From positions 62,001 through 126,000 of the forward strand of contig JAFRCE010000002.1 in assembly GCA_017404505.1 (NCBI GenBank): a DNA stretch of 64,000 bases, written 5' to 3'. A program made the translations under genes and the position numbers. Position 1 is the stretch's first letter, and the number at the start of each line of letters is the position of its first letter. Shown piece by piece: positions 30,205-33,217 of this stretch. Under the pieces are notes generated by a model. That model made no database searches. It had not been told where the DNA came from and saw only the letters and a list, made by a program, of their open reading frames with translations. Source of the stretch: Solobacterium sp. (GTDB taxonomy: Bacteria; Bacillota_I; Bacilli_A; Erysipelotrichales; Erysipelotrichaceae).

Positions 30205-31023
30205 TTAATCAAACAGGTCAATGTCAGTTTCCGTAAACCCGCTGTCCGTCAGAACACTCAGTGACCGGAAACCGGCTTTCCGGATCAGGGCAAGAGCCTG
30301 CGGATAATAGCAGTCCAGATCGTTCCGGTTGTGGCAGTCGCTGTTCAGCATGATCCTGGCACCTTTTTCTTTCAGATAACAAAGCAGATTGAAGGCCGGA
30401 TAGGGTGTTCTGCGGGTGCCCCTGGCAATCGCGCCGGTATTGACTTCGAAGATCCGCTCAGTGCCGAGGTCATCAATGGCGTCCGTCATGACGCGGACAT
30501 AAGCGGGATCGTCAAAGCGGATATAGGATTCGTCTTCATTGTATTTGGTAATCAGATCCAGATGGCCGATCATATCGATTTCCGGCCAGCTTTTCAGCGT
30601 GTGGTAACAGGAACAGTAATCTTTCGCAAGCCGGACGAAATCATTGCCGTACCATTCCTGAAGATATTTTTCAAAGACTTCTCTTGAATAATCGACCGGG
30701 AAGACTGCGCCGTCTTTTTCAACGCAGTGCACACTGCCGATCATGTAGTCATACGGTGTTTTGTCTTTGATCCGGTAAAGAACGTCGACTTCCGTGCCAA
30801 GATAGATCGTTATCTGATCCCGGTATTTTTCCCGGAGGGCGTTTACATCACGGATGTAGTCCTTTGTGCCGGCAAGACTCATGGCATAGTCGTCATATTC
30901 CACATGGCCATGGCCGCTGAAGCCCAGGATGTCAAAGTGTTTTTCAATGGCACTCAGCACCATTTCTTCCGGTGTGTCGTTGCCGTCGCAGTAGACGGTA
31001 TGGGTGTGCAGGTTCTGTTTCAT
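30205..31023 (-). CDS. PHP-domain phosphatase (histidinol-phosphatase type)
   Basis: 272 residues with PHP metal motifs HTHTVYCDG (5-13), SGHGHVEY, MIGSVHCVE, MIGHLDLITKY and NSDCHNRND. The order and spacing match HisK-type histidinol phosphatases, but no histidine gene is near, and related PHP enzymes act on other phosphoesters, so the substrate is open. GAGG precedes the ATG. It lies 20 bp after the P-type ATPase homologue and is probably co-transcribed with it. Confidence 0.85.
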   Translation of the reverse strand: MKQNLHTHTVYCDGNDTPEEMVLSAIEKHFDILGFSGHGHVEYDDYAMSLAGTKDYIRDVNALREKYRDQITIYLGTEVDVLYRIKDKTPYDYMIGSVHCVEKDGAVFPVDYSREVFEKYLQEWYGNDFVRLAKDYCSCYHTLKSWPEIDMIGHLDLITKYNEDESYIRFDDPAYVRVMTDAIDDLGTERIFEVNTGAIARGTRRTPYPAFNLLCYLKEKGARIMLNSDCHNRNDLDCYYPQALALIRKAGFRSLSVLTDSGFTETDIDLFD

Positions 31024-31043: not shown

Positions 31044-33164
31044 TCAGCGGAAACGGGATGCCGCGAAGACGGCGGCTGCCGAACAGGCCAGCGGGATCAG
31101 AAGCGGCATCGGATACGGTATAAACTGCGGCAGGATAAAACCGAAAAGGGAAACGGCCGCCGCGTGATAAATGATCACAGCGAGCTCGGCATACTGGATG
31201 CGGCTGTTCAGAGCCTGGGAAATACGGATGGCTTTAATGAAATCAGAAAGCCGTTTTCTGGTCAGCTGCAGACCGATATTCTCATAGGAAGTCTGTGCGC
31301 CGGAACCGATAATGACGGATACGTCGGCCGGCAGGGCGGTGATGTGAGAACTATTTCCGGAAAGATACGCGCTGACTTCATTGGCATCGGACGCATTTTG
31401 CAGAAGCCGTTCGATTTCATATCGAGCTGGCTGGTGAATGACGTTTTCCAGCTGCAGTTCTTTCTGCAGCAGCAGCGATTCATCGGCGCTGCCGTCACTC
31501 AGCAGACAGATGTCGATTCCCATATTCTGCAGTTCCCTGACAGCTTCCGGTACACCGGGAAGCATCGGCCGGATGGCGGCGATCAGGCCGATGATCCGGT
31601 CTTCTTCAGTAAACAGCAGAACCCGCTTGCCTTCCTGGCGCAGTCTGCTGATCAGTGGATCCCAGTCATCGGTATCGATGCCGTGGCTGAGGATCTCCTC
31701 CATGAAACCGGCAGAATAGCGGCTCATGGACTGAATCGCCTGGCGGCCGCGGGAACTGAGACGGGTAAACTCTTCTTTGTCGATGCCGGCGATCCGGCGG
31801 GTTTTCAGATATCTGGTAACCGCTCTTGCGAACGGCTGTTCAGAACGGCTTTCCAATGCGTAGGCTATGTATTCGAATTCGCTTTCCGACAGTCCGGAAG
31901 CAGGAATAAAATCGGTTACCGTCAGTTCGTCGTCGGTGATGGAATGATTCTGTTCCATGACGGCCAGATCGACGCGCCCCGTCATCTCCAGGGCATCAAC
32001 GGTGCGGAACAGGATGTGTTCGGCAGCCGCGCCGCGGGCTGAATGCATGACGGCGTTGGCGGAAGTCAGTGACAGAGCCGGCAGGGCCGCACAGGCCAGG
32101 ACCGACATGGCAGCTGAGAAGGCGAAGACAGGATCATGCCGCAGGGTATACCAGCCAAGGCCGGAAAGAAGAACAGCCAGCAGCGTATACAGGAACAGAT
32201 TGCCGGTAAAACTCTTGAAGGGCGAACGGAAGGATCCGTCTGAAGCGGTCTTTTCAGCCATTTCAGCCAGTTTCATCATCGCGGTCGTGTTGCCGACCCG
32301 CTCGGCTTTCAGGGCAATGGATCCTTTCAGGCATTTTGAGTTGGCATAGACATAAGAACCTTTTGTTTTTTCGACCGGTTTTTCCCAGCCGGTCAGAGCG
32401 GATTCATCCATGACCGCGAAGCCTTTGTACACCCGGCCATCCGCCGGAACGATCTCGCCGGGACGGATGACAATGATCTGATCGACTTTCAGGTCACTGA
32501 CCGCTTCCATGGTTTCCTGATGATCTTTGTAAACGGCGGCGGTCCGCGGCAGCAGACTGTGCTGCGGCTGCAGATACGCGGTGCGGCAAAGCCGCAGCCA
32601 GTCGCGGATCAGCATGGCATAAAACAGAGCCCACGAACTGTCGGCAAACAGCAGAACCGACTGAATATCCTGCCGCACCAGCAGAACGATGCCGCAGACA
32701 AAAGTCAGACAGGCGATCAGAACCGCCGCGAAGATACTGATGCTTTTGGGGTTTTTCAGCTCCTGCAGGGCATCCGGAATGACACTGCGGGTCAGATAAA
32801 AGACCGCCAGACTGAAGCCGGGGGCGATCCACATGCCGAACGGGAGCCAGCGGCAGATCAATCCGGCCGCGCCAAGCAAAGCGCATACGGCAAGCGGAAG
32901 CGAGAAAACATGACGGTCTGATGGGACAGATGTCTCTTCTGTTTCCTCTTTCAGATAAGCCTGGTAGCCTGCTTCGCGGACGGCCTGTATAATACGGTTC
33001 GGACGGATCAGTTCATCGTCGAATTCCACGGAAAGGGTGTGATTTTCAATACTGATCGACGCGCTTCTGACGCCGCTCAGCGATCTGACTTTTCTTTCAA
33101 TGGAATCGGCGCTGACCTGAATGGAAATGTCGGAAACCGAAAATGTCTTTTGTGTGATAGCCAT
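31044..33164 (-). CDS. Heavy-metal P-type ATPase homologue lacking catalytic motifs
   Basis: 706 residues, collinear with P1B metal-pumping ATPases: N-terminal HMA-like domain (1-75), membrane spans, actuator domain (PGEIVPADGRV, DESALTGWEKP), nucleotide domain and C-terminal spans. Every key motif is altered: metal-binding CxxC is SADS (18-21); TGES is TGWE (258-261); CPC is CAA (358-360); DKTGT is EQNHS, with the phosphorylated aspartate now E404; HP is QP (443-444); GDGxND is replaced by SGNSSH (602-607). The frame is intact and GAGG precedes the ATG. It should not pump ions by the known cycle; a sensor, scaffold or regulatory role is a guess. Confidence 0.9.
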   Translation of the reverse strand: MAITQKTFSVSDISIQVSADSIERKVRSLSGVRSASISIENHTLSVEFDDELIRPNRIIQAVREAGYQAYLKEETEETSVPSDRHVFSLPLAVCALLGAAGLICRWLPFGMWIAPGFSLAVFYLTRSVIPDALQELKNPKSISIFAAVLIACLTFVCGIVLLVRQDIQSVLLFADSSWALFYAMLIRDWLRLCRTAYLQPQHSLLPRTAAVYKDHQETMEAVSDLKVDQIIVIRPGEIVPADGRVYKGFAVMDESALTGWEKPVEKTKGSYVYANSKCLKGSIALKAERVGNTTAMMKLAEMAEKTASDGSFRSPFKSFTGNLFLYTLLAVLLSGLGWYTLRHDPVFAFSAAMSVLACAALPALSLTSANAVMHSARGAAAEHILFRTVDALEMTGRVDLAVMEQNHSITDDELTVTDFIPASGLSESEFEYIAYALESRSEQPFARAVTRYLKTRRIAGIDKEEFTRLSSRGRQAIQSMSRYSAGFMEEILSHGIDTDDWDPLISRLRQEGKRVLLFTEEDRIIGLIAAIRPMLPGVPEAVRELQNMGIDICLLSDGSADESLLLQKELQLENVIHQPARYEIERLLQNASDANEVSAYLSGNSSHITALPADVSVIIGSGAQTSYENIGLQLTRKRLSDFIKAIRISQALNSRIQYAELAVIIYHAAAVSLFGFILPQFIPYPMPLLIPLACSAAAVFAASRFR

Positions 33165-33217
33165 AATACCTCATTAATTCTAATGAAAAATCATTTCCCG
33201 TCAAATCTGCGGTTCGT

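Follow-up and report, generated by a model that had tools for sequence, protein, structure and literature searches.

The window, by which we mean the whole 64,000-nucleotide stretch of Solobacterium DNA analysed here, carries an intact gene for a full-length relative of the heavy-metal P1B-type ATPases in which every catalytic motif is replaced. Degenerate homologues of this pseudo-P1B ATPase are found in 23 of the 70 species of the genus, which consists of gut-type bacteria, and purifying selection clearly retains them. It is a relative of the copper exporter CopA, probably without catalytic activity and retained as a scaffold or regulator anchored in the membrane. The gene and its parts are located as follows.

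31044..33164, minus strand: pseudo-P1B ATPase gene, 706 aa, intact (open reading frame, Pfam, 22 aligned full-length homologues)
32955..33152, minus strand: HMA-like domain, residues 5–70, CxxC replaced by IQVS (PF00403)
32211..32558, minus strand: A (actuator) domain, residues 203–318, TGE changed to TGW (PF00122)
32385..32387, minus strand: codon of W260, which replaces the dephosphorylation Glu of TGE (alignment)
31902..32018, minus strand: first part of the P domain, residues 383–421 (AlphaFold model, joint alignment)
31953..31955, minus strand: codon of E404, which replaces the phosphorylated Asp (alignment)
31629..31901, minus strand: N domain, residues 422–512, HP lost (family alignment)
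31251..31628, minus strand: second part of the P domain, residues 513–638, GDGxND lost, new invariant E562 (alignment)

The frame starts with ATG and has no internal stop, in line with the intact frame of the original prediction. Three Pfam families match the 706-residue protein above cut-off (HMA, 4.7e-10; E1-E2_ATPase, 7.9e-32; Hydrolase, 4.7e-9), and the P1B domain order (HMA, A, P, N) is present together with the eight helices. Collinearity with P1B ATPases, also claimed at the outset, holds from end to end: positions 5–706 of the family profile align with 3–705 of Archaeoglobus fulgidus CopA (3j09) at 2.3e-93. Among the NCBIfam models only the general TIGR01494 passed (81.0 against a cut-off of 62.3) and all heavy-metal models failed; the score for TIGR01525 (heavy-metal ATPases) is 189.7, below its curated cut-off of 346.25. 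Structure prediction, which had been proposed as a check, gave a P-type fold (AlphaFold model, pLDDT 84, pTM 0.74) whose best structural match is the copper P1B ATPase 7r0g (Z 32.3, rmsd 5.1 over 613 residues). The complete P1B layout is thus predicted to fold.

Motif positions were fixed by a joint alignment of the pseudo family with 29 intact CopA proteins, and in agreement with the original prediction none of the catalytic motifs is kept. In the window protein CxxC of the HMA-like domain reads IQVS (residues 15–18), and its second Cys is Ser in 22/22 family members. TGES has become T258-G-W260-E, CPC has become A360-L-P and GDGIND has become L601-S-G-N-S-S; CPC, GDGxND and the Glu of TGE are gone in all 22 members. 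DKTGT is E404-Q-N-H-S. The Lys of this motif is missing throughout (22/22), and the position of the catalytic Asp holds Glu in 17 members and Asp in five, i.e. an acidic residue is always kept. HP of the N domain is Q443-P and TGD is S556-D-G. In TM7 the motif YN is YH in 22/22, with Y666 invariant and H667 in place of Asn, and the copper-group motif MxxSS of TM8 is absent from the window protein. The replacements first proposed for TGES (TGWE), DKTGT (EQNHS, with E404) and HP (QP) are borne out by the joint alignment. Three further losses were recognised correctly but misplaced: CxxC had been read as SADS, three residues away from the true IQVS, CPC as CAA, which lies two residues upstream of the true ALP, and GDGxND as SGNSSH, one residue off the true LSGNSS. 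Shifts of one to three residues leave the conclusion of loss unchanged. DKTGT, CPC, TGES and GDGxND are all kept in 30/30 CopA proteins inspected (the Zn/Cd-type ATPase of the window genome also keeps them, and is counted among the 30 only if added). Since the same losses are fixed in 22 aligned homologues while CopA keeps the motifs, chance is excluded. By ancestry and predicted fold the protein belongs to an enzyme family whose catalytic residues it has lost, which marks it as a probable pseudoenzyme. The Zn/Cd-type P1B ATPase of the window genome (L002, G000:C12:12150-15677) is itself intact, and its N-terminus contains several HMA-type repeats spaced by His/Glu-rich stretches (HDHCDCHEHHEHEHHH).

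The 22 aligned full-length members, the window's included, are 89 to 28% identical and every one is degenerate. A 23rd member, with approximately 25% identity, is found at the same locus in G034, where it is an open and likewise degenerate frame. This member (L135:6312-8456) is the most divergent one; TG of TGE is also gone, motif I is EQDDIV, and a SIYPC sequence resembles part of the CPC region. In the scans of the family and order, the weakest aligned member scores 830 bits, followed by an intact CopA of another genus with 421 bits; the best match beyond the aligned members in 273 family genomes (in G103) is an intact CopA. With a threshold of E <= 1e-115, samples of the class (395 genomes) and of the phylum (392 genomes) gave no match apart from the window's own, and a member as far removed as the G034 one would escape this search. 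In G078 the gene lies on two contigs (L042 on G078:C2 and L049 on G078:C212) with equal score and identity, probably due to a contig duplicated in the assembly.

The gene has been passed on vertically, at a single locus. In 21 of the 22 members it is divergent from a pepP-like gene, the exception being G077; in most members exoIII and dipeptidase genes follow beyond the pepP-like gene, and the other side carries nudix, amylase, rluD, prfB and secA genes where the contig reaches them. A remnant of the gene was sought by tblastn at the locus in 28 non-carriers of the first screen, and none was found save the open, degenerate member of G034, which is the sole P-type gene there; an intact orthologue at the locus is thereby rejected. 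Frames adjacent to pepP in five non-carriers were considered as remnants, and according to Pfam none is P-type: they match DUF1275, metallo-beta-lactamase, MatE and acetyltransferase, and one is without a Pfam match. Absence without trace from most of the genus means that the pseudo-ATPase is dispensable in some settings. Upstream of the window gene lies the following candidate promoter.

33177..33204, minus strand: sigma-70-like promoter TTGACG-16-TAGAAT (10/12 consensus bases)

Over the whole region, 4 promoter-like sites were counted where 2.8 would be expected. The stretch from the −10 box through to ATG (TTTTTCATTAGAATTAATGAGGTATT) is identical in four genomes (G000, G087, G011 and G017), and with such a stretch the predicted leader is very short.

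According to the Nei-Gojobori method, dN/dS of the window species and its closest relative (G000/G087) is 0.105 (bootstrap 0.078–0.138), and other pairs give 0.08–0.27 (0.084 to 0.272), although individual values are approximate in those pairs where dS is high. Values this far from 1 support the original claim of a pseudoenzyme under selection and not decay. For neighbouring genes dN/dS is 0.03–0.19, and dN of the pseudo-ATPase is approximately two to three times theirs. The gene is therefore clearly retained by purifying selection, though a looser one than acts on most neighbours, and part of the sequence change may be relaxed constraint.

Constraint lies elsewhere than in CopA: variation along the membrane path is almost unrestricted, while the HMA-like segment, the A and N domains and the first P segment are conserved. 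Mean pairwise identity of M1–M2 is 0.18 as compared to 0.87 in CopA; for the N domain the two values are 0.42 and 0.46. In the pair G011/G017, where dS of the two proteins is nearly equal (0.92 and 0.88), dN of the MA–M2 segment is 0.339 against 0.057 in CopA, while in the N domain it is 0.114 against 0.194, and the whole protein evolves about 2.6 times faster than CopA. The N domain is slower than that of CopA in most but not all pairs; in G061/G075 it is no slower (0.456 vs 0.441). CopA has 215 conserved positions; 23 of these persist in 20 or more of the 22 members, and 90 have disappeared from almost every member. Another 25 positions are newly fixed, i.e. at least 20/22 members share a residue that is rare in CopA, examples being S18, Y273, E288, A303, T306, P315, Q405, Y432, L453, E562 and H667. 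Many of them lie in the final part of the A domain and in its link to M3 (residues 288–326), so that new near-invariant residues lead into this helix. In the N domain the family conserves the pattern LEYIAYALxSRSxxPFA[KR]AITRYL[KR]; the net charge of this domain is +1.2 as compared to −4.4 in CopA, a difference too weak to base a ligand on.

Without sites for phosphorylation, dephosphorylation and the binding of nucleotide and metal, the E1/E2 cycle and metal pumping would be impossible under the established mechanism of P-type ATPases. The pattern of sequence conservation points to a membrane-anchored cytosolic binding module. If this is true, the membrane helices would now be mainly an anchor, and the conserved cytosolic face, chiefly the N domain and the rebuilt linker from the A domain to M3, would bind a partner protein or a ligand; binding might then be relayed by a shape change or act by simple recruitment. 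A residual chemical role is thinkable, with an acidic residue at the catalytic position in 22/22. We only tentatively suggest a more specific version, in which an entire P-type ATPase now serves the bacterium as a receptor or signal adaptor in its membrane. The N domain would then offer a new ligand or partner site and the rebuilt A-domain-to-M3 linker would relay the shape change, without phosphorylation or transport.

Which partner could such a protein have? According to the phylogenetic tree the closest active relative of the pseudo family is CopA, a P1B-1 copper-exporting ATPase. The 22 members form a single clade beside it (SH-aLRT 100, joining branch 2.34 changes per site), with long branches that leave the inner order of the clade unsure. 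The two proteins are alike in domain order, eight helices, predicted fold and full-length sequence relationship. They differ in that the pseudo-ATPase has no catalytic or metal-binding motif, has one N-terminal HMA-like domain and none at the C-terminus, unlike CopA of the same genome, and has its conservation shifted from the membrane path to the cytosolic domains. CopA is also present in 12 of the 14 carriers tested. The dead paralogue could, by analogy, regulate the active CopA of the same cell, or another P-type ATPase, in a mixed complex, as the dead trypanosome prozyme does with its active partner (PMC5201418); dead paralogues are known to act as activators. We consider this unlikely: protein search and PF00122 matches revealed no CopA in the carriers G084 (94% complete) and G085 (86%), both of them incomplete assemblies, and in G084 the gene is still under selection (dN/dS of G062/G084 is 0.113). 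Moreover, the copper-type operator TACANNTGTA was not found upstream in 21 members. In one carrier, G073, the CopA gene (L161, G073:C305:3031-5748) is broken by a TAA codon, which is either real or an assembly error in a genome that is 65% complete.

With its rebuilt membrane domain the protein could alternatively be an energy-independent transporter, channel or receptor for another small molecule, for example around the YH motif (Y666, H667) of TM7. The invariant Y666 and the replacement of Asn by H667 in 22/22 fit such a role, as does the identity of 37–40% retained by M3 to M6. The first membrane helices, however, are the least conserved part (18–20% identity, dN up to 0.70), unlike a constrained path, and we find this reading quite improbable. 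It is even harder to see the protein as a still active enzyme with an altered site, e.g. a HAD-type phosphatase using [D/E]QDGT as DxDGT. DQD does occur in five members (e.g. DQDGTVTT in L011), the acidic residue is kept in 22/22, 14 of the 22 have a Lys near the position of HAD motif III, and ERMA with DKQGI and without TGES or GDGVND has been reported active (PMC13322241; contested by PMC12134183). On the other hand, the Mg-binding GDGxND is lost in 22/22, and 17 members have Glu at the catalytic position, among them the window protein, whose motif is EQNHS; such activity would be very surprising. That the gene is decaying and was caught before breaking is hardly credible, even with dN two to three times that of the neighbours and a drifting membrane part, because 23 full-length frames remain open down to 25–28% identity with dN/dS of 0.08–0.27 and a conserved promoter. 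Recent decay is refuted by the open frames and by dN/dS far below 1; neither an orthologue with intact DKTGT nor a frameshifted copy or remnant, the signs of decay named in the original prediction, was found (28 non-carrier loci by tblastn). A dead scaffold or regulator thus remains our preferred reading.

Pseudokinases and pseudoproteases are well known. Descriptions of pseudo-P-type ATPases are, to our knowledge, scarce, and opinions differ on the best case, TMEM94/ERMA. This contested protein and the ATPase domain of Plasmodium GC-beta, both eukaryotic, are the closest precedents. The animal TMEM94/ERMA is P-type-ATPase-like without TGES or GDGVND, and it had no ATPase activity in one study (PMC12134183), while Mg transport was reported by another group (PMC13322241). 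It shares with the pseudo family a P-type ATPase architecture without TGES and GDGxND, but the Asp and Lys remain in it (DKQGI), and it is a eukaryotic protein with ten helices, structurally closest to SPCA. The P-type ATPase domain of PfGC-beta is likewise degenerate, with most signature residues unidentifiable (PMC6592433); it is of P4 type and fused to a guanylate cyclase, whereas the bacterial protein is stand-alone and of P1B type. Trypanosome prozyme and similar proteins, as inactive paralogues kept by selection, illustrate a possible mode of action (PMC5201418), although the fold is another one and the active partner is known there. No bacterial clade of this kind is described in the literature searched, most subscription journals being outside its scope.

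That the gene has been retained in at least 23 species suggests a new use of the pump's body, for a task other than pumping. With 23 or more natural variants, the clade separates what a P-type ATPase body can do without its engine from what a pump needs. The N and A domains, to which constraint has moved from the membrane path, are predicted, in a testable way, to be where the new function lies.

The original prediction had also paired the gene with a PHP phosphatase. A PHP-domain gene (30205-31023, minus strand) does follow the pseudo-ATPase in the same direction after 20 bp, so the adjacency in the window stands, but a conserved pairing does not: the two genes adjoin only in the window species and in G087, by which the phosphatase is ruled out as a functional partner. 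In these two species the PHP gene may be co-transcribed with the pseudo-ATPase, given the 20 bp gap and a terminator-like hairpin (30199-30170, minus strand) that comes after the PHP gene.
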